Assembly: GCA_017406465.1 (NCBI GenBank)
Contig: JAFQYM010000017.1
Span: 1-64,000, forward strand
Length of the DNA stretch: 64,000 nucleotides
Origin: Kiritimatiellia bacterium
GTDB lineage: Bacteria; Verrucomicrobiota; Kiritimatiellia; RFP12; UBA1067
Direction of reading: 5' to 3'
Under the pieces are notes generated by a model that was not told where the DNA came from, searched no databases, and worked only from the letters and a program-made list of their open reading frames with translations. Position numbers and translations under genes: made by a program. Every line of letters begins with the position of its first letter. Position 1 is the first letter of the stretch. This document shows positions 29,345 through 40,869 of the stretch, piece by piece.

Positions 29345-29379
29345 CTTAATCCTGTCAATCATGTTAATCCTGTCTAAAA
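29345..29379 (-). repeat. R1 dispersed repeat (CAGGATTAA family)
   Basis: On the minus strand TTTTTAGACAGGATTAACAT continues into GATTGACAGGATTAAG. Three ~9-nt units lie between a micro-ORF and the ribosome site of the gene at 29331. Confidence 0.8.
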
Positions 29380-30589: not shown

Positions 30590-31594
30590 TCACCCTCCTT
30601 TCTTAATCCTGTCAATCTTGTTAATCCTGTCGAAAACACCTCTCGGCGTCTCTGCGTCTCTGCGCGAGATATCATCCGCGTATTTAGTGTTGTTTGCAGC
30701 CTTTGACAGCAGATTTGCCGTGGTCGTCTTGAACACATCTTGTCCAGTGAGGCAGACATCCATCAGCCGAGCGCGGCGGTTCTGCCGCCATTCGTCGAGT
30801 CCGAGGTAATAGAATTTCCGCAAGCCCTCGGCAATGACAAACGGCATGATACCGTTCTTCAGGCACTCCTTCAGCATCAAAAGCCGCCCGACGCGTCCAT
30901 TGCCGTCCTGGAACGGATGTATCGCCTCGAACTTCACATGGAAGTCGATGATGTCCTCCAGCGTTTTTCCGCTCGCCGCATATTCCCTGACGAGCGCCGC
31001 CATCCGGCGCGGCACCTCGCTCGCGGGACAAGTCTCGCGCTCGCCCACCACATTGTCGAGCTTCTTATATTCGCCGACGGCAAACCACGCCTTGCGCGAA
31101 TCGCTCGTGCCGCTCTTGAGCTGCGCGTGAAGACGCTTGATGTAGCTTTCCGTCAACGCCGCGCCAGCCGTCTCGATGACGATGTCAAGGCAACGGAAAT
31201 GGTTCGCCGTCTCCACCACGTCATCCACTGGCGTGTCCTCGCCGAGCGAACCAATGGTCTTGGTCTCGAATATCCAACGCGTCTGCTCGTGCGTCAGGCG
31301 GCTGCCCTCCATGTGGTTGGAGTTGTAGGCAAAGTCGATTTGTAGCCGATGGTAGATTCCGTTCTTGGTTCCCGAACGCTTCTCCGCCTTCAGCACATCC
31401 CAGATCGACTTCGCCCTCACCTTGCGCCGCGTGCTCTGCCCAGGATCGACCGCATCCGCCGGTATCAGCCAGCACCTGCCCTCGAAGGTCGCGCCAGGAA
31501 CATGCCCCCTCTGGCATCTTAGCCGCACATTCCGCGCGGTTTTCCCCCATTTCTTGGCGGCTTCCTCGACAGAAATATACTTTTCTTTATTCAT
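30590..31594 (-). CDS. Fic-domain protein with HTH and repeat-encoded tail
   Basis: A 334-aa Fic protein. Residues ~5-60 form a MerR/excisionase-like DNA-binding head (ISVEEAAKKWGKTARNVRLR). An inhibitory-helix motif S-xxx-EG occurs in NSNHMEGSRLT, and the catalytic loop HPFQDGNGRVGR is complete, so it should transfer AMP or another nucleotide moiety and be self-inhibited through its N-terminal helix. The last ~25 residues (DISRRDAETPRG, then VFDRINKIDRIKKGG) are translated from adjoining R2 and R1 repeats. ATG 31594 is chosen because the upstream ATG lies inside the -10 box. Confidence 0.88.
   Translation of the reverse strand: MNKEKYISVEEAAKKWGKTARNVRLRCQRGHVPGATFEGRCWLIPADAVDPGQSTRRKVRAKSIWDVLKAEKRSGTKNGIYHRLQIDFAYNSNHMEGSRLTHEQTRWIFETKTIGSLGEDTPVDDVVETANHFRCLDIVIETAGAALTESYIKRLHAQLKSGTSDSRKAWFAVGEYKKLDNVVGERETCPASEVPRRMAALVREYAASGKTLEDIIDFHVKFEAIHPFQDGNGRVGRLLMLKECLKNGIMPFVIAEGLRKFYYLGLDEWRQNRRARLMDVCLTGQDVFKTTTANLLSKAANNTKYADDISRRDAETPRGVFDRINKIDRIKKGG
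30603..30670 (-). repeat. R2 plus R1 repeat pair inside the Fic 3' end
   Basis: An R2 variant (CGCAGAGACGCAGAGACGCC, 30640-30670) abuts an R1 copy (GACAGGATTAACAAGATTG onward, 30603-30636). Both are read through in the Fic frame to the stop at 30590, and the R1 end supplies the GGAGG for the next gene. Confidence 0.8.
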
Positions 31595-31722: not shown

Positions 31723-34203
31723 CTATCTCCACACCGGGATGAAGAGAAGGTCGACCTTCTTGCCCTTCTCGGGATCGTTCTCGTAGCGGAAGAAGCGCCA
31801 GAGGAAGGACGTCTTTGAATAGCCGTTCGTCTTCGAGTCGTAGGTGAAGCCAGGGAAGACATCGAGCGCGACATCTCCGTTCTCCTCCTCCCAGTCCCAG
31901 AGCTTCCAGATGACTTTGTGGCTCGTGTAGCTTGTGCCTTTCACCGTGTCCGCGCGATGCTCTCCGTTGTAGAGGAGCAGAAGAAGCGATGTATCGCCCT
32001 CCTCGCTGTCGGAGATCTTCTCGCGTGTCGCCGTGTCAAAGCAGACCTTCCGATTGCTCTCGTGGTTGAAGACGAGCTTGTTGCCAAGCTTGTGCCTTTC
32101 CGTCATTTCGTAGCGGTTCGTGGTGCCGTATGGAAGACAGCCATTGAAATGCCTGTCGTTATCAGAAACAAGGAAAGCCGTCCGCACGTCCTTTGCCCAT
32201 ACGTCGGTCGCCTGCAACCTCTGTTCGACAGTTCTGTCATATGCTTCCCTTGAAGAATTCCAGACACGATTCGTATATGTCGCCGTCCATATCTTGATGT
32301 CGTCGGGCAGCTTCTCCGCGTCCATCCATGCCGACTTTGAGCTGTAGCCGACATCCGCCTCCCTCTTGTAAAGCGGGAACAACCATCCGCCCTCCTTCTT
32401 GCCGGACCAGAGCCCAGCGAGCCCCGCCGCGAAATATGTGTTCGTGTATGACGAGCCGCCGCCGTTCCATCCGAATGGAATGGAGTAGAACGACTCTCCC
32501 GCCTCGCGGAGAAAGAGTGGAAGCGCCCAATTCGTCTTGTGCGAGCCAGAGGCATTTGACGATCCTCCGACGAGCCCCGCAAGCGTGAACCAGGTCTTGT
32601 CGCATGAATTCGTCTCCCAGTTCGCGCCAGAGAGAAGCGGCAAGGAGAAGAAGCCGCGAGTTCCCTTCTTCGCGTCGTCCCAATACGAATAGACCGGCGA
32701 GTTGAACTGCGCCTCGTCGCGGCAGTAGAGCGGGAAGAGCCACGACGCCTCGCCCGACTTCCCGTAAAGTGGAGTGATGAACGACTCCTTGTCGCGGTAG
32801 TAGAGGGGAATGAGCCAGTCGCTGCCGTCCTTCTTGTTGCGCCCGTAGAACGGAGTGATGTATGTGCGTTCCTCGCCGTCGAAGTAGACGGGGAAGAGCC
32901 AAGTGCGGCGCGGGTTGTGCCCGTAGAGGAGAGTGTAGAAGCTTTCGCGGTCCTTGTAGAAAAGCGGGAACACCCAGCTCGCGCCGCCTGTCGCGTCGTT
33001 CCAGACATGGCCGCCAAGCCCCATGAGAAGGTAGAGAAGCCGATCGCCGCTCTTGTGGTCGCGCTCGTAGCCGGAGAGAAGCGGGAGGGAAAACGCCCTG
33101 TCGATCTCGCCGTCCGACCCAAGCTGCCGCCAATAGGGAAGCGAGGCGAAAGTCCTCTTGTTGCGCCAGTAGAACGGCACAACCCAGTCGGCATCGCCGT
33201 CCTTGCCGCCGATCAGCGTCAGGAACTTCTCTTTGTCCTTGTAGTAGAGCGGCAGCGTCCAGTTGGCCTCGACCGTCTTGCCGTAGAGCGGAGTGAGCGT
33301 CAGGTGCTCGTCGTGGTAGAAGAGCGGGATAAGCCAGCTCGCATCCTTTGTCTTGCCGTAGAGCGGAGTCAGGAACTCGCCCTTGGCCTTGTCGTGTGAA
33401 TAGAGCGGGAAGAGCCACGACGCCTCGTAGTCGCCGTTCGTCGTCGAGTCCATTCCGGCGAGTCCGCAGAAATAGCGGCTCTTGACGTGGCTGCCTCCGC
33501 TGTAGCGGGAATACGGGATCGAGTATAAGTCGTCGTCGTCATAGAGATAGAACGGCAGGCAGCGATGGTTGGTGAATTTACCATCGCGGCGATTGAAGCC
33601 CGCGAGCCCGCAGAACGCCCAAAATTTGCTTTTCTCTTCGCTCCACGAGGAGCGCTCTCTCGACTCGTAGTAGTAGAGCGGCCAAATCGTGTTCCACAAG
33701 TCTCCACTCTTCTCCCACCCAGCCCAGCAAAGCGGGAAGACGCAGAAGCCGCCGTCATCGTCGTCGTCGTTGTCCCAGAAGATCGGGAATACTCCGGCGA
33801 ACTCCCTGTTCCACCACAGGGCAGGGAAGAGGCAGAAATATGGCTTGTCGCTATAGCTCTCTCCCCAGAAAAGCGGGAACACGCGATAGTCTCTGTGCTT
33901 TGTGTCGAACTGGCTTATCGGCCAAAAGAAGTTGAACTCGTCATAGTCGCCGCTGCCGCTCTGCTTGTACTGCGAGTAAAGCGGCCTAAGCGCGAGGTGG
34001 TCGTCACCCCACGAGATGAGCGGCCAGGCGAGCGAGCCGACGGGCTCGCGGTAGTACGCGACCGGCCACAGGTTGACGCGATCCTCGACCGCGCCAGTGA
34101 ACTTCACTTCGTTTCCTTCGTAGAACGGCGACGAAGAAAACTCCTTCATCTTACACCCGCCCAGCAGCATCACGCCGAGAACGGCAGTCATTATCTTTTT
34201 CAT
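31723..34203 (-). CDS. Large tandem-repeat lipoprotein (W-x-x-P-L-Y repeats)
   Basis: An 826-aa protein with a lipoprotein signal (MKKIMTAVLGVMLLGGC). From residue ~45 to ~640 it is built of about 16 degenerate units of 20-25 residues around W[LV][FI]PL[FY], often followed by YxDxE and then TPLYGK (for example ASWLIPLFYHDE, ANWTLPLYYKDK, SDWLIPLYYRDK, ASWLFPLYCRDE). The last ~180 residues are non-repetitive. Alternating aromatic beta-strands suggest a beta-solenoid, propeller or outer-membrane barrel. I know no named family. It ends the TetR-headed envelope cluster, behind an R1 inverted repeat. Confidence 0.8.
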   Translation of the reverse strand: MKKIMTAVLGVMLLGGCKMKEFSSSPFYEGNEVKFTGAVEDRVNLWPVAYYREPVGSLAWPLISWGDDHLALRPLYSQYKQSGSGDYDEFNFFWPISQFDTKHRDYRVFPLFWGESYSDKPYFCLFPALWWNREFAGVFPIFWDNDDDDDGGFCVFPLCWAGWEKSGDLWNTIWPLYYYESRERSSWSEEKSKFWAFCGLAGFNRRDGKFTNHRCLPFYLYDDDDLYSIPYSRYSGGSHVKSRYFCGLAGMDSTTNGDYEASWLFPLYSHDKAKGEFLTPLYGKTKDASWLIPLFYHDEHLTLTPLYGKTVEANWTLPLYYKDKEKFLTLIGGKDGDADWVVPFYWRNKRTFASLPYWRQLGSDGEIDRAFSLPLLSGYERDHKSGDRLLYLLMGLGGHVWNDATGGASWVFPLFYKDRESFYTLLYGHNPRRTWLFPVYFDGEERTYITPFYGRNKKDGSDWLIPLYYRDKESFITPLYGKSGEASWLFPLYCRDEAQFNSPVYSYWDDAKKGTRGFFSLPLLSGANWETNSCDKTWFTLAGLVGGSSNASGSHKTNWALPLFLREAGESFYSIPFGWNGGGSSYTNTYFAAGLAGLWSGKKEGGWLFPLYKREADVGYSSKSAWMDAEKLPDDIKIWTATYTNRVWNSSREAYDRTVEQRLQATDVWAKDVRTAFLVSDNDRHFNGCLPYGTTNRYEMTERHKLGNKLVFNHESNRKVCFDTATREKISDSEEGDTSLLLLLYNGEHRADTVKGTSYTSHKVIWKLWDWEEENGDVALDVFPGFTYDSKTNGYSKTSFLWRFFRYENDPEKGKKVDLLFIPVWR

Positions 34204-34233: not shown

Positions 34234-34310
34234 TTAGACAGGATTTACAGGATTGACAGGATTGAGAACCTTTCCCGCAATCCTGTTAATCTTGTTAATC
34301 CTGTCTAAAA
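34234..34310. repeat. R1 repeats in inverted pair (long hairpin)
   Basis: One copy in each orientation (34234-34263 and 34279-34310) separated by ~15 nt, so the pair can fold into a ~30-bp imperfect stem. The outer copy supplies the last codons (FRQD) and the stop of the alpha/beta hydrolase gene. Confidence 0.75.
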
Positions 34311-35186: not shown

Positions 35187-35985
35187 AATTTTTCCTTTTC
35201 CCATTATTCTGTTTCTCATCAACGTTCCGCAACTCGCGTTCCGTCGGCGCTTTGCGCTCCGCAACGCCGCACGAGACAATTCGCGCAACCGCGGCCGGCG
35301 AGAGAACCGCCCGTTCAGCTTCGTTCAGTTCAGGGGCGAAGAAGGTTCGCACGCTCTTTTCGTCCGCATTCAGCGCAAACGCCTCGAGTTCAGCCGCGAC
35401 CGCCGGATGTTCCTTAGCAAGCGAGACTGACGACCATTGCGCCGCACGCGCAGTCAGATCGACCACGCACGGCTCGTCGGGAACCGTCATTCCGCCACGT
35501 CGAATCACGCGGCGCGGCGCTTCCGCTTCGCCAGTCGCCAAGAAGTAGCCCCACAGGAAATCAAGGATTCCCGGCGCATAGTCCGTCAAATCCGGCGGCA
35601 CCATGTCGCCAAGGGCCTTTCCGTCCAAGGCCGCGCCGATGGCGTATGCAATCTCCTTGCCCCCTCGCTTCTTCGCCGCTTCCCATTCCGCCCGATGCGT
35701 CGCCAGCGACGACTTTGCCGCGCCGAAATAGAACCCCATGACCGGCGGGATGCCGCCAGGCTTCATCTTGCCGATCTTCTTGACCGTCGGCAACACGGCA
35801 ATGGCCGATTCTACATCGTTTGAGCGATAGTAGTCTTTGAAAAGCGAATCAACCTTCTCCATTTCGGCCTGCGTCGGCTTTGACTCGAACAGCCCAAGAA
35901 AAGCAAAGGCTTCTCCTGGCATCAGCGCCATTACCGCAATCGCCGCGCCCGCGACGATCCGCACAAGTATCTTTTGTGTATTCAT
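35182..35985 (-). CDS. Hypothetical secreted protein
   Basis: A 267-aa protein with a signal peptide (MNTQKILVRIVAGAAIAVMA, cleavage near EAFA). The rest is helical, with no recognised family; a Gly/Pro stretch (KMKPGGIPPVMGFYFGAAKS) stands out. The head MNTQK..VRIVAG is shared with the lipoproteins at 35982 and 37174 and with the micro-ORFs at 37082 and 37803. AAAGGAGG precedes ATG 35985, and the start overlaps the upstream stop (ATGA). The stop codon is provided by an R1 repeat. Confidence 0.65.
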   Translation of the reverse strand: MNTQKILVRIVAGAAIAVMALMPGEAFAFLGLFESKPTQAEMEKVDSLFKDYYRSNDVESAIAVLPTVKKIGKMKPGGIPPVMGFYFGAAKSSLATHRAEWEAAKKRGGKEIAYAIGAALDGKALGDMVPPDLTDYAPGILDFLWGYFLATGEAEAPRRVIRRGGMTVPDEPCVVDLTARAAQWSSVSLAKEHPAVAAELEAFALNADEKSVRTFFAPELNEAERAVLSPAAVARIVSCGVAERKAPTERELRNVDEKQNNGKRKNS

Positions 35986-36710
35986 TTCGATTCCTCCTTT
36001 GCTTCTCCTTTCGCGTTGAGATTGTCCAGACTTGTCAGATAGCATTCCCCGACAAAGTCAGCGCTCTTCTTGATTGTCGCAAACTCACCCCATTTCCCGC
36101 CTTGCTTCGCAAGCGGTGTAAAATAGACGTTCTTCCTATCTGACGCAAATTCGTCGAACCCAACGTGTGGCGGCGAGATGCGAACAATGTGACGCCCTGG
36201 CTCCGAGAAACTAATGTCGCCGCCAAGGGGTGGTCCTTCCACGGAAAGCGTCAAATTCCCTCTCTTGAGATCGACGATCAGCAGTTGATCGTGCGCTGGA
36301 TCATAGTCATACAAATCCACTTTGCCCTTCCATTTGATTACACCCTCCTCCATCGTCAGGCAGCCGTCTTCATGCAGGAATATACTTGCCGGGAGGTTGT
36401 ATGGCAGAAACAGCGCATCATTTACCAAAGCAACGCCACACTCCAACGCGGCAATAGGTGTAAAACATAAATACCCTAAAGTCACATCATACCATTTCGC
36501 ATCAGGCGAGAAACTAATTATGCCAACAGAATCCGGTTCGTGCGACGTGGCAACTGCATCCTTGACGACTCTTTGCACCGTTGGAAATGGAAGCGGGTTG
36601 ACCTCCGACGAGAAATTGTTTAATTGCGCCGGTATGTTCATACAGCCCGCAAAGCACCCCGCTATCACAGCTACCGCGACAATCCGCGCAAATACCTTTC
36701 GAGTATTCAT
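35982..36710 (-). CDS. YceK/YidQ-like lipoprotein
   Basis: A 242-aa lipoprotein (MNTRKVFARIVAVAVIAGCF, lipid Cys at FAGC). Around residue 75-110 the segment LECGVALVNDALFLPYNLPA resembles the conserved D-x-[LF]-[LF]-L-P core of YceK/YidQ-type small lipoproteins. A C-terminal extension of ~120 residues has a beta-rich pattern. Function unknown. It overlaps the following gene by 4 nt and lies 27 nt after the gene at 36738, inside the envelope cluster. Confidence 0.65.
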   Translation of the reverse strand: MNTRKVFARIVAVAVIAGCFAGCMNIPAQLNNFSSEVNPLPFPTVQRVVKDAVATSHEPDSVGIISFSPDAKWYDVTLGYLCFTPIAALECGVALVNDALFLPYNLPASIFLHEDGCLTMEEGVIKWKGKVDLYDYDPAHDQLLIVDLKRGNLTLSVEGPPLGGDISFSEPGRHIVRISPPHVGFDEFASDRKNVYFTPLAKQGGKWGEFATIKKSADFVGECYLTSLDNLNAKGEAKEESK

Positions 36711-36737: not shown

Positions 36738-37085
36738 TCAATCATAGCTATTGCAAAACCAGGCAAAGCCATACATTGAAAGCAGCAACATTACAATATA
36801 GAAAGCAAAGGCCGTCCATCGCGCTCGTCGTTCATCCACCATCAGGAACACAAGCCCGACGGCGATGTACAAAATGTAGGAAACAACGAATAAGAGCAAC
36901 CGCCACTCACCCGTGACATACCATCCCACAACATCATAGAGCGCACCTATGACAGCCCACGCCGTAAAATATGGCAAGAACAGAATGCTCACGGCGGCAA
37001 AACCTAACGCCTTCGGCCATTCGCCAAGCAATAACAACACCCCTGAAATGTAGGAGGCCGCAAGCAACATCAGAAACTTCTTCAT
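36738..37085 (-). CDS. Four-helix inner-membrane protein
   Basis: A 115-aa hydrophobic protein with about four membrane spans (FLMLLAASYISGVLLLL, LGFAAVSILFLPYFTAWAVI, LLLFVVSYILYIAVGLVFLM, AFAFYIVMLLLSMYGFAWF). No family recognised. Its ATG overlaps the stop of the 31-aa repeat-encoded ORF upstream (ATGA), and AAAGGAG from the R1 repeat serves as ribosome site. Translation is thus tied to that micro-ORF. Confidence 0.7.
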   Translation of the reverse strand: MKKFLMLLAASYISGVLLLLGEWPKALGFAAVSILFLPYFTAWAVIGALYDVVGWYVTGEWRLLLFVVSYILYIAVGLVFLMVDERRARWTAFAFYIVMLLLSMYGFAWFCNSYD

Positions 37086-37177
37086 GCTTCCGCTCCTTTC
37101 TTAATCCTGTTAGTCTTGTTAATTCTGTCCAAAAACCTTCCCGCGACGGACAGCGCAAATGTCTTTCGCATATTCAT
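37082..37177 (-). CDS. 31-aa repeat-encoded microprotein A
   Basis: ORF of 31 codons: a head MNMRKTFALSVAG followed by RFLDRINKTNRI and KKGAEA, the second part being the translated R1 repeat. Its ATG overlaps the stop of the lipoprotein at 37174 (ATGA), and its stop overlaps the ATG of the membrane protein at 37085 (ATGA), so it is coupled on both sides. A second ORF at 37803 has the same length and 21 of 31 identical residues. It may be a leader peptide, an inner-membrane microprotein, or a scar of gene truncation. Confidence 0.5.
   Translation of the reverse strand: MNMRKTFALSVAGRFLDRINKTNRIKKGAEA
37100..37135 (-). repeat. R1 repeat within microORF A
   Basis: A diverged R1 copy (GACAGAATTAACAAGACTAA then CAGGATTAAG) read in frame by the 31-aa ORF. 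Confidence 0.75.
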
Positions 37178-37629
37178 TTCGCTTCCTCCGCTTCTACCTT
37201 ATCCGCAGTCTTTCCCAAATACTCGTCGCGTCGATAAAAGTCAACTGGCAGACAAAGCGTATCCCAGACAGGCGCAAGGACCAACGCCTCTCCCGCCCAC
37301 ACTACCGCGCCAGCCGGAGCAAAGACGAGTGGAGTCAACGGCCAATCATCTGCGTCCGCAGTTAGAAACCCTGCGAAGAACAGCATCACGCCCGCAGACG
37401 GCGGCAAACATGTCTGACCTTTCATGTCCTTGTCGGGAATGGCGATGGAAAAAGGCAAAGGCATATATGTGGAATCGCCTATCTCGCAATGGTATTCATC
37501 CAACTTCTGGAATGTCATTGTCTTTGTTGCAACATAATACTCGCCAGTGCGCTCTATGGAACAGCAACCAACCGAGCTGAGCATCGCCGCTCCCGCGACA
37601 ACCCGCGCAAACATCTTTCGCGTATTCAT
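37174..37629 (-). CDS. YceK/YidQ-like lipoprotein
   Basis: A 151-aa lipoprotein (MNTRKMFARVVAGAAMLSSV, lipid Cys at GCC). The C-terminal part AGEALVLAPVWDTLCLPVDF carries the YceK/YidQ-type core. The family comprises small envelope lipoproteins of unknown role. The gene shares its first codons with microprotein A, whose ATG overlaps this stop. A 49-aa ORF ends 27 nt upstream. Confidence 0.72.
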   Translation of the reverse strand: MNTRKMFARVVAGAAMLSSVGCCSIERTGEYYVATKTMTFQKLDEYHCEIGDSTYMPLPFSIAIPDKDMKGQTCLPPSAGVMLFFAGFLTADADDWPLTPLVFAPAGAVVWAGEALVLAPVWDTLCLPVDFYRRDEYLGKTADKVEAEEAK

Positions 37630-37656
37630 GAGTTCTTTTCTTTCAATTGCATTTTG

Positions 37657-37806
37657 TCAAGGCAGAATAGATAGAAAAATGTCAACAATCCTCCAAAACC
37701 AACGCACCAAATCACGGACAATTTCACAGAACAAATCCAGCACATTATAAAGACACTTGCTTAAACGAGATTTCTTCGCTGAATGGTTTTCCACTTTCTC
37801 CTTCAC
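37657..37806 (-). CDS. 49-aa amphipathic/membrane small protein
   Basis: A GTG-started ORF with a good AAAGGAG 7 nt upstream. It has a basic N-terminus (MKEKVENHSAKKSRLSK) and then a long hydrophobic or amphipathic helix (IVRDLVRWFWRIVDIFLSIL) to the end. Its GTG overlaps the stop of microprotein B (GTGA). No family recognised; by composition it should sit on or in a membrane. A peptide toxin is one possibility, but there is no antitoxin signal. Confidence 0.5.
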   Translation of the reverse strand: MKEKVENHSAKKSRLSKCLYNVLDLFCEIVRDLVRWFWRIVDIFLSILP

Positions 37807-37898
37807 GCTCCCGCTCCTTTCGTAATCCTGTAAATCCTGTTAATCCTGTCTAAAAACCTTCCCGCGACGGCCCACATAAATATCATCCGCATATTCAT
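37803..37898 (-). CDS. 31-aa repeat-encoded microprotein B
   Basis: Head MNMRMIFMWAVAG plus repeat-encoded RFLDRINRIYRI and TKGAGA, 31 aa. It matches microprotein A in length, join point and tail. An upstream GGAATCGAA stretch serves as ribosome site, and its stop overlaps the GTG of the 49-aa ORF. Conservation of two such ORFs with the same junction argues against chance, though both may descend from one duplication. Confidence 0.5.
   Translation of the reverse strand: MNMRMIFMWAVAGRFLDRINRIYRITKGAGA
37822..37857 (-). repeat. R1 repeat within microORF B
   Basis: TTTTTAGACAGGATTAACAG then GATTTACAGGATTACG, read in frame by the 31-aa ORF. Confidence 0.8.
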
Positions 37899-37915: not shown

Positions 37916-37945
37916 GCTTTGTGCTCTTTGTGTTCTTCGTGGCAA
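37916..37945 (-). repeat. R2 repeat variant (CACAAAGA type)
   Basis: On the minus strand CACGAAGAACACAAAGAGCA then CAAAGCGG. It is located between the lipoprotein stop at 37970 and microORF B, ending ~18 nt before its ATG. Confidence 0.65.
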
Positions 37946-37969: not shown

Positions 37970-38809
37970 TTAGTCCCTTTGCCCGTTGGCTTCCTTTTCG
38001 CGTTTCTCTTGGCGCATCTTGAGAAGCCAATCGATCTCTGCTCTCATGATATCGGCATCCCGGAGAACCATCAGTTGTTCGTCGCTGAACTTCACATTGT
38101 CTTTTCCCTCCGACGCTGAGCTAATGGAATACTCAATTTTATGAGGAATTACCTGAAACATAGGCACCTTTGTTGCTTCCTTAATCTCGACCAGCCCCTT
38201 AGCCAACATATCCAGAGATTCACGCTCGCAAGATTTCTCGTACACGGACCCAACTATGCCCTGGAACTGATACATAGTTCTCCAATCAATGTCTGATTGC
38301 CCTTTTAGCCACGATCTGAGAATCGAGAGAATAGCCGACACTTGCTTATCTGACAAGTTCTTCAAGTCTGATTTCTCTGAAAGCCATCGGTTTAGATAAT
38401 ATAGCTTATCACACGCCCGCGATTCCCAATATTCCGAATCTGCAAGCGTTGCATCAAGATCTGATTCCAGTCGACGCCGCACATCCTGGTAATTCGCCTC
38501 CTCAATCTGCGAAAGCGCGTTGTCGAGAAAGTCGATAGGCAGCATGACGGTGTCAAACGCTGGCGCAACGACGCAACGTTCTGCAAGAGTTGCAACAGCA
38601 CCGGCAGGAATCAGCGTGACCCAGCCGACAACAGGTATCACTGCCCCCGTCAGCATCATAGCGTCGCCCGCTGTTTTGAAACTTTTTCCTCCAGACCAAA
38701 GATCTTTCGTCGAGGCATAATATTTCCCTTCCCGGTCAACAAACATGTAGCACCCCTGCTGCGACAGACACACTGCCGCAAAAACAATCGCCGTCATTAT
38801 CTTTTTCAT
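37970..38809 (-). CDS. YceK/YidQ-like lipoprotein with helical domain
   Basis: A 279-aa lipoprotein (MKKIMTAIVFAAVCLSQQGC). Residues ~45-100 include ERCVVAPAFDTVMLPIDFL, the YceK/YidQ core, followed by a ~180-residue charged helical region ending in EKREKEANGQRD. ATG 38809 has AAAGGAG upstream; an in-frame TTG nine codons earlier lies in an R1 repeat. It is the next gene after the transporter/acyltransferase fusion, separated by abutting R2 and R1 repeats. Function unknown. Confidence 0.68.
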   Translation of the reverse strand: MKKIMTAIVFAAVCLSQQGCYMFVDREGKYYASTKDLWSGGKSFKTAGDAMMLTGAVIPVVGWVTLIPAGAVATLAERCVVAPAFDTVMLPIDFLDNALSQIEEANYQDVRRRLESDLDATLADSEYWESRACDKLYYLNRWLSEKSDLKNLSDKQVSAILSILRSWLKGQSDIDWRTMYQFQGIVGSVYEKSCERESLDMLAKGLVEIKEATKVPMFQVIPHKIEYSISSASEGKDNVKFSDEQLMVLRDADIMRAEIDWLLKMRQEKREKEANGQRD

Positions 38810-38823
38810 AATCTTCTCCTTTC

Positions 38824-38890
38824 CCAATCCTGTCAATCTTGTTAATCCTGTCTAAAAACACTTTGCGTCCTTTGCGTTCTTTGCGGCTAA
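38824..38890 (-). repeat. Abutting R2 and R1 repeats filling an intergenic gap
   Basis: Starting at the base after the stop of the gene at 38893, an R2 copy (TTTTAGCCGCAAAGAACGCA, 38861-38890) runs into an R1 copy (38824-38859), which ends at the ribosome site of the next gene. The repeats make up essentially the whole intergenic region. Confidence 0.82.
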
Positions 38891-38892
38891 AA

Positions 38893-40869
38893 TCACTCCG
38901 CGTTATACCACTCCTCCAGCTTGCGATTGAACTCAAGCCGCGTGAGTTTCGACCATTCCTTGACGCGATCCGTCATGTCCTCGACATGCATCGTCACGCG
39001 GCGGCGCGGAACGAACGGCGACCAGAAGAACCACAGGAAAACGCTCTTGATGAAAGTCGGCACGAACGAGGGCGAGGTCTTGCGCCCCTTGCGAGACCAG
39101 ATCGACCCCCAGAGTCCGCGCGTCCGGACACCAATAACGCGCACATTCTCCGGCAAGTCGCCGCACATGTTGTACGCAAGCTGGCGCGTGCCGATGTCTT
39201 CGTGCTCGCCCTCGGTCTGAATATGTCCCGAAGGATAGAAGATCACGTTCCCGCCGTCTTCGAGAGTTGACTTCACGATGTCGCCCAAGCCCCGCGCGAT
39301 TGTCGCGCCCTTCGCCGTGCGGTGCTTGCGAAGATCGGGAACAGCCACCGCGCCAAGCGTCTTCAAAACGCGCGGCGCGACGATGCCGGTGTGGAAGAAG
39401 AGTTCGTCCGAAAGCGGCTTAAGCGGAGTCTTCCAGAACGTTACGCCCACGAGCATCGGATCGACCATCGCCGGGTGATTGGGGAGAACGAGCAACGATG
39501 TTTTCTTGACAGGATTTACAGGATTAACAAGATTTTCGGGGGTCTGGGGGTCTCCCCCAGCTCTTAATCCTGTCAATCCTGTTAATCCTGTTAATCCTGT
39601 CTGATCTCCCCAACCCTCTACCTCCACCCTATATCTCCAGGCGAAGACCCAACGGCCGACATAAAGCAGCACCGGCCTATAGCTGAACACAAAGAGAAAC
39701 GGCGCGACGAGAAACGCGATCGCAAGAAGCAGGAGAAACGCCTTCGGGCCGAACGCCCAGCTCACGAGCGCGTAGCATCCGCTCGCCGCGAGCATGAAGA
39801 GAAACGACACCTGGTTGAAGTAGGCGAGCATCGTGTTCAGCTTCGGCCCCTTCACGACCTTCTGAATCTCAGCGTCGAACGGCAGCTTGAAGAATCCGAG
39901 GTCAAACGCCAAAAGCCCCAGCACAACGCCAAACCACCGCGGCGAAAGCGGCGCGAAGTAGAGAACCGCAAGTAACGCCGCTGCGATCCAGCCCGTGAGA
40001 AGCGTCGCGCCGAGAAGAAAGCGCCGCCTGTCGACAAATCCCGCGACGATCTGCCCCGTGACAATGCCAACGGCAGCGCCGCAAAGAAGCACCCCCGTGC
40101 CGGTGTCGCTCAAGTTTAGCCCCGCCTCTGCCTTGCCATAGACGAGAAGCCCCATCTGGAGCATCGCCGCGCCCCACCAGAAAATGGAGAGCGTGAAGAT
40201 GACAGCATTGAGCCCGTCGTAGCGCCCAGCCATTCGGTAGGCACGGGCAATATAGCGAATCGGGTTGATGGCGTGGAAAGAGCGGTTGAGCTCCTCTTTC
40301 GCCCTGACTGTGTAGCTCGCCGCAAGGCCAAGCACGGCGAATGTCGCAAGGCAGCAGTAGGCGAGATTCCACTCGGGATGGCGGACTTGAAGGTCGGCCA
40401 CAAGGCCACCCGCCACCGTGCCGAGCAGCACGCCGAGAAACGAGACGCCCTCCATGCCGCCCATGCCGGTCGAGATTCTCTCCGCGCCGCCTATGTCGCG
40501 CACAAGCGCGTATTTCGCTGGCGAATAGAGCGAGCTCTGGAGCCCCATCAACAGCACCGCGCCGATGACGAGCCACGGCGAGTGGAGCGCGAAGCCCGCA
40601 ATCGCGACGGCCATTATCGGAAGTTCCGCCCATTTTGCCGCACGTACGATCCGACGCTTCGGCCACACGGCGGTCAGCCGGTCGGCAAGCGGCGAACAGA
40701 GAATGTAGGGCAGGACGAGCATTCCCGCGACAACACTCGTCAGGAGCGACCGCACGCGCTCGTCGGCAATCCATCCGATGACGGTCAGGCACGCCAGCGT
40801 CTTCAGGAAGTTGTCGTTCAGCGTCCCGAAGAAGTTGGTCACATAAAGCGACAAAAATGAATTTTTCAC
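38893..40869 (-). CDS. LplT-like MFS transporter / PlsC acyltransferase fusion
   Basis: A 658-aa protein. Residues 1-~410 are an MFS transporter of the lysophospholipid-flippase (LplT) type (LYVTNFFGTLNDNFLKTLA at the start, ~12 spans). From ~445 an acyltransferase domain follows with the HX4D motif in PNHPAMVDP and downstream blocks FYPSGHIQTEGE and VIGVRTRGLWGS. This layout resembles LplT-Aas systems that import and re-acylate lysophospholipids. The linker (~420-455) is encoded by inverted R1 repeats (TGLTGLTGLTGL, NLVNPVNPV). The start is a GTG after AAAGGGGG, not the ATG 14 codons earlier. Confidence 0.85.
   Translation of the reverse strand: MKNSFLSLYVTNFFGTLNDNFLKTLACLTVIGWIADERVRSLLTSVVAGMLVLPYILCSPLADRLTAVWPKRRIVRAAKWAELPIMAVAIAGFALHSPWLVIGAVLLMGLQSSLYSPAKYALVRDIGGAERISTGMGGMEGVSFLGVLLGTVAGGLVADLQVRHPEWNLAYCCLATFAVLGLAASYTVRAKEELNRSFHAINPIRYIARAYRMAGRYDGLNAVIFTLSIFWWGAAMLQMGLLVYGKAEAGLNLSDTGTGVLLCGAAVGIVTGQIVAGFVDRRRFLLGATLLTGWIAAALLAVLYFAPLSPRWFGVVLGLLAFDLGFFKLPFDAEIQKVVKGPKLNTMLAYFNQVSFLFMLAASGCYALVSWAFGPKAFLLLLAIAFLVAPFLFVFSYRPVLLYVGRWVFAWRYRVEVEGWGDQTGLTGLTGLTGLRAGGDPQTPENLVNPVNPVKKTSLLVLPNHPAMVDPMLVGVTFWKTPLKPLSDELFFHTGIVAPRVLKTLGAVAVPDLRKHRTAKGATIARGLGDIVKSTLEDGGNVIFYPSGHIQTEGEHEDIGTRQLAYNMCGDLPENVRVIGVRTRGLWGSIWSRKGRKTSPSFVPTFIKSVFLWFFWSPFVPRRRVTMHVEDMTDRVKEWSKLTRLEFNRKLEEWYNAE
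39505..39603. repeat. Inverted R1 repeats inserted inside a coding sequence
   Basis: R1 copies in opposite orientation (39505-39533 and 39572-39603) flank a GGGGGTCTCCCCC hairpin. Together they form a ~100-bp in-frame insertion between the MFS and acyltransferase parts of the gene. Confidence 0.8.

Follow-up and report, generated by a model that had tools for sequence, protein, structure and literature searches.

Two short open reading frames of 31 codons, A and B, lie on the minus strand of the analysed DNA (the window, 64,000 nt of a Kiritimatiellia genome) and raise the question of whether they encode microproteins, act as translational leaders or arise as by-products where genes of this genus are joined. 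The initial annotation had described a pair of 31-aa ORFs with tails translated from a repeat (R1) and with 4-nt overlaps to their neighbours, and all of this was recovered at the exact coordinates: the two peptides share 21/31 residues, the tail of each is an R1 copy, the stop of A overlaps the start of a 115-aa membrane protein gene (ATGA), the stop of B overlaps the GTG of a 49-aa ORF (GTGA), and at its 5' end A starts on the stop of a 151-aa lipoprotein gene (ATGA). The ORFs and the genes around them are as follows.

37082..37177, minus strand: ORF A, putative 31-aa leader ORF composed of head, R1 and SD tail, with ATGA at both ends; sequence MNMRKTFALSVAGRFLDRINKTNRIKKGAEA
37803..37898, minus strand: ORF B, putative 31-aa leader ORF, terminating with GTGA on the 49-aa ORF; sequence MNMRMIFMWAVAGRFLDRINRIYRITKGAGA
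36738..37085, minus strand: gene F5 for a 115-aa membrane protein, following A
37657..37806, minus strand: 49-aa ORF VKEKVENHSAKKSRLSKCLYNVLDLFCEIVRDLVRWFWRIVDIFLSILP, following B; also kept in the congeners G330 and G335
37174..37629, minus strand: 151-aa lipoprotein-like gene with the full head, upstream of A
35982..36710, minus strand: 242-aa lipoprotein-like gene with the full head
37970..38809, minus strand: F4, a 279-aa lipoprotein-like gene preceding B

The 49-aa ORF is probably a real small gene because it is conserved in two congeners, in one of which it carries an in-frame 15-nt insertion.

The head block (MNTRKMFARVVAG...), made up of an SD, an ATG and about 13 codons, supplies the first 42 nt of A and B. 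The same block opens the 151-aa and 242-aa lipoprotein-like genes, and a weaker version of it is found on a 267-aa gene; the 242-aa and 267-aa proteins fall into separate blastp clusters, and the lipoprotein-like genes with this block are unrelated.

37136..37177, minus strand: head block of A, ATG and 13 codons, as in the adjoining lipoprotein genes
37857..37898, minus strand: head block of B

What had been taken for a secretory-type head is thus the start block of nearby genes, and since the block stops short of a hydrophobic core in both ORFs, it is unlikely to work as a signal peptide in either.

R1 is built of the nonamer ACAGGATTN, repeated three times and followed by the SD of the next gene. 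In A and B, a T-run is followed by GACAGGATTNACARGATTNACAGGATT and then by a tail (AAGAAAGGAGCGGAAGC in A, ACGAAAGGAGCGGGAGC in B) that holds the SD for the gene behind it. R1 is free of stop codons in the DRI frame, the one that runs into ATGA or GTGA, and R1 with its SD travels with the downstream gene, in agreement with the annotated claim that R1 supplies codons, ribosome site and junction. A total of 22 R1-like sites were counted in the window against 0.36 expected from shuffles, and 44 copies in the genome, many of them in inverted pairs, against none for the reversed pattern.

37103..37135, minus strand: R1 of A, T-run and three nonamers with 3 mismatches
37824..37856, minus strand: R1 of B, T-run and three nonamers, exact
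37086..37102, minus strand: SD tail AAGAAAGGAGCGGAAGC of A, preceding the 115-aa gene; found with R1 in 7/7 orthologs
37807..37823, minus strand: SD tail ACGAAAGGAGCGGGAGC of B, preceding the 49-aa ORF; found with R1 in 3/3 orthologs
38826..38852, minus strand: R1 ahead of the 279-aa gene, with a CGCAAAGRA repeat (about 38859-38889), not a head, as its 5' neighbour
29348..29374, minus strand: R1 of another head+R1 junction, out of frame (MNARLMFVRAIAGSF, then stop)
34237..34305, strand not applicable: inverted pair of R1 that separates the 273-aa gene from the 826-aa gene; fold of -39.4 kcal/mol, z -10.3
39508..39601, strand not applicable: R1 inverted pair, an in-frame insertion in the MFS-acyltransferase linker; absent from several congeners

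No RNA fold beyond that of shuffles was predicted around A and B (z -0.3 and +0.7 for the single R1 copies), and scans of the window for Rfam families and tRNAs gave no matches.

In seven congeners carrying the 115-aa gene, R1 and SD are present upstream in 7/7 and the 31-aa ORF with full head in 3/7; in the other four orthologs, the sequence 5' of R1 is a startless head fragment (two) or tandem repeats of ACGCAGAG or CGCAAAGRA (two). For the 49-aa gene, R1 and SD are kept in 3/3 and the head and 31-aa ORF in 1/3, the two congeners having R1 and SD each time and the head neither time; in one of these two, R1 follows immediately on the stop of another gene. A new class of microprotein had been proposed for A and B, and the presence of the 31-aa frame in only these few orthologous places speaks against it. 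Relatives were searched for the same ORF at gene junctions as the proposal had recommended, and 40 distinct head+R1 junctions were found across congeners, ahead of many unrelated genes. The head has a start codon in 34 of these copies, and this start is in frame with R1 in 22 and out of frame in 12, mostly through an altered length of the T-run; the frameshifts in the repeat part, on which the proposal of a peptide was to stand or fall, are thus frequent. Divergence among the 22 in-frame copies is 0.141, 0.304 and 0.233 at the three codon positions, the second being highest, and the out-of-frame copies likewise bear no sign of protein conservation.

A and B differ at 16 nucleotides, 12 of these in nonsynonymous codons (pairwise dN 0.175, dS 0.276), and two copies 16 random substitutions apart are expected to share 20.2 residues against the 21 observed, so that the identity of A and B is no evidence of protein constraint. 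Judged by these comparisons, A and B are not a conserved microprotein, and their peptide shows no amino-acid constraint. That they are functional secreted or membrane microproteins is very improbable: the 31-aa length does recur and about ten copies have a conserved look, but the ORF is missing at most orthologous junctions, frameshifts are common, the third codon position has no excess of divergence, a Pfam search with A gave no match, and the hydrophobic core is absent after the head.

A and B belong to a variable island, in which the sets of small genes between an MFS-acyltransferase (MFS-PlsC) gene and the 826-aa gene differ among congeners. The lipoprotein-like 826-aa protein (window 31723-34203), which anchors the island, contains internal sequence repeats and gave no confident family in Pfam. 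In G000, A, the 151-aa gene and B occupy the place of a single module in G325, a difference consistent with duplication or insertion at the joints. Further tandem repeats (CACRAAGAN, CGCAAAGRA and ACGCAGAG) are seen at the same joints, at 37916-37945, 38859-38889 and about 30632-30655 of the window, and in the R1 loci of other organisms 11/18 of these short-unit tandem repeats are found no more than 200 nt from R1.

BLAST ends between the islands of 13 congeners, 527 distinct ends in total, were used as a sample of breakpoints. Of these, 174 are no more than 10 nt away from a head or R1, where circular shifts give 34 +/- 10, and none of 2000 shuffles reached this number. The density of ends is 30.6 per kb at R1, 32 at heads and 3.0 inside ORFs. 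At gene boundaries it is 26 per kb with a head or R1 joint and 15 without, and part of the clustering is therefore a general property of gene boundaries. Heads and R1 attract breaks beyond this general preference, and A and B are located at probable junctions of cassette exchange, although boundaries without head or R1 break as well.

Leader starts were analysed by scanning the genus for the final R1 unit joined to SD and overlap, a search that was blind to the middle unit and the head. It gave 33 sites in 17 genomes, with the 31-aa head ORF at 10 of them. Six headless sites have an ATG within R1 (ACATGATT), giving for example MINRIKKGAEA and a stop, and at other headless sites the ATG is slightly upstream, as for MFLDRINRIYRITKGAGA in G335 and MVWVYFNAETQRRRVLDRINRIYKIKKGAGA in G304, each again ended by a stop. 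When any start in frame, up to 45 codons away or in R1 itself, was counted as a leader start, one was present at 15/21 headless overlap junctions and absent from 6/21, compared with 26/100 non-overlap R1 copies having one (Fisher 2e-4, the congeners not being independent); after collapse by gene family, 11/16 headless overlap junctions have a leader start (p 0.0013). The ATG internal to R1 is enriched relative to paired R1 (p 0.004), not relative to other single R1 copies (p 0.33). Since the test was designed after the pattern had been seen, the relatives are not independent and the internal ATG gives this latter value, selection for a leader is likely but unproven. One part of the translational relay suggested in the initial annotation thus finds indirect support, an in-frame start being retained at overlaps even where the head is missing, with translation itself predicted.

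From these data we infer that the leaders are translated, coupled to the next gene and under selection, and that the joints arise by recombination. We slightly favour the reading that A and B are gene-cassette joints, shuffled between relatives, that also act as translational leaders in the manner of ORF-11 of attI1. Gene boundaries in the genus recurrently carry two short blocks, the gene-start block and R1 (three 9-nt units, then SD), and comparison of the islands suggests that small genes are swapped between the MFS-PlsC gene and the 826-aa gene through breaks in these blocks. Where a head lands directly on R1 and SD, its frame would pass through R1 and end on the ATGA or GTGA of the next gene, and ribosomes from the leader would be delivered to the next start by termination-reinitiation, as for attI1 ORF-11. 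The leader peptide would be disposable, some in-frame start being retained above chance. The downstream genes have good SD sequences of their own, so that coupling is unnecessary for initiation, which counts against this reading.

The same SD sequences fit an account in which the ORFs are neutral scars, by-products of a head adjoining R1, with the leader unselected, the ATGA following from the SD spacing and the frame inherited with the blocks. The out-of-frame starts in 12 of the 34 copies and a peptide similarity of A to B at the level expected without constraint also agree with it, but overlap junctions are richer in in-frame starts than other R1 copies, and reach them by several different routes; we regard this account as possible, though on the doubtful side. 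It is quite unlikely, in our estimate, that the function resides in R1 itself, as a structural RNA/DNA element or a site for protein binding beside the ribosome-binding site, with the ORF incidental to it. Such a role would suit the conservation of R1 with its SD, the spread of R1 over many phyla and the precedent of upstream tandem repeats near start codons, such as the TAACTGA heptamers (PMC4679880), but the single R1 of A and B has no stable fold, and many copies lie within genes or in inverted pairs, in both orientations.

The reading of A and B as joints doubling as leaders has its model in class 1 integrons. ORF-11 of attI1 boosts downstream translation, and amino-acid changes in it have little effect (PMC8876359). 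Like ORF-11, ORF-17 and ORF-18 of attI1 (PMC8876359), A and B are short ORFs with their own SD at a cassette junction, they take stop or frame from the joined piece, and the sequence of the peptide is of little importance; as in ORF-11, each has its own SD and start codon and stops at the next start. The difference is that the joints here are made of the gene-start block and the repeated nonamer; the exchange is predicted from comparison and need not be enzymatic. The locus is not classed as an integron, a class defined by a tyrosine integrase (IntI) with attI and attC sites. A and B also resemble ATGA-overlapping gene pairs in their 4-nt overlap of start and stop and in their operon-like row, and strict coupling was reported for such pairs in 13/14 tested cases (PMC6728339); here, however, the place of the upstream gene is taken by a leader that is built from a repeat and not conserved.

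R1 itself extends far beyond these junctions. Among the matches listed, exact copies were found in Verrucomicrobiota, Chloroflexi, Proteobacteria, Bacteroidota, Planctomycetes, Acidobacteriota and archaeal MAGs; the cross-phylum matches are mostly in MAGs, and binning errors may contribute a few. Within its own phylum, R1 with at most one mismatch was present in 35/289 genomes. R1 pairs face inward in 67/70 cases, and the two pairs that were folded gave strong hairpins. In other phyla (contigs L029-L142), R1 often stands between genes as inward-facing pairs. Many single copies are just upstream of start codons, while paired copies occur in both orientations and also inside ORFs. A complementary bias between the arms of a pair (T versus A at the first variable base) was striking in this genome and failed across phyla. 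In G298 and G290, GxxExxY-type genes start right after a joint of head and R1 (L185 about 1541, L186 about 5253), but a link of R1 to these genes was rejected: one was nearby in only 2/114 R1 loci within the flanking stretches of genome contigs, and neither of the two GxxExxY genes of the own genome shares a contig with a listed R1 copy.

Long genes of this genome contain R1 pairs in frame, namely CarB (two), GltB (two), PurF (one) and MFS-PlsC, and the frames of MFS-PlsC, CarB and GltB are open through the pairs, as in genes with palindromic elements.

L011:4130-7381, minus strand: CarB-like gene with in-frame R1 pairs
L011:10517-12541, minus strand: PurF-like gene with an in-frame R1 pair
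L012:11481-16109, plus strand: GltB-like gene with in-frame R1 pairs

When CarB and GltB were aligned with solved homologs, the read-through (TGL)n...(NPV)n matched poorly or stood opposite gaps. Three congeners lack R1 in the MFS-PlsC linker, which is 35 nt long there, and in seven genomes the linker contains R1 and measures 107-149 nt. This linker (window 39501-39614) takes a short form, carries an R1 pair or has inverted repeats of other 9-nt units (G325/G335, G333), in frame where checked. Rickettsia palindromic elements and other MITE-like palindromes of bacteria are hairpins that sit within housekeeping genes without breaking the frame, or in intergenic DNA. R1 resembles the Rickettsia elements in this form and placement, but its units are nonamers, its spacer varies and its hosts span many phyla.

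No paper on the R1 repeat sequence was found in a search of the published literature, and its nearest published relatives are the in-gene palindromic elements and the TAACTGA heptamers. The latter, from Beggiatoaceae, Cyanobacteria and Bacteroidetes, are like R1 short tandem units, sparse over distant phyla and sometimes within ORFs, and they stand just 5' of starts, as many single R1 copies do (PMC4679880). R1 differs from the TAACTGA type in its unit, which is not the 7-nt one but the nonamer ACAGGATTN, usually in three copies, often in inverted pairs and followed by an SD; the TAACTGA sets are mostly without SD, and a single inverted set is reported (PMC4679880).

For the locus itself, a tempting microprotein call is corrected: similar short ORFs can recur and still not be protein genes. 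Should the leader role hold true, A and B would represent an integron-like expression trick, in which a single repeat provides a ribosome site and a frame as well as the join. R1 is the larger story, being present in many phyla and in frame in core enzyme genes, and merits separate study. Tentatively, and with a low expectation, nonamer repeats like R1 may be general, horizontally spread gene joints, whose stop-free frame and SD would turn an upstream in-frame start into a leader handing ribosomes to the newly joined gene. Gene joints of this type, if true, would allow the exchange of small genes at their boundaries.
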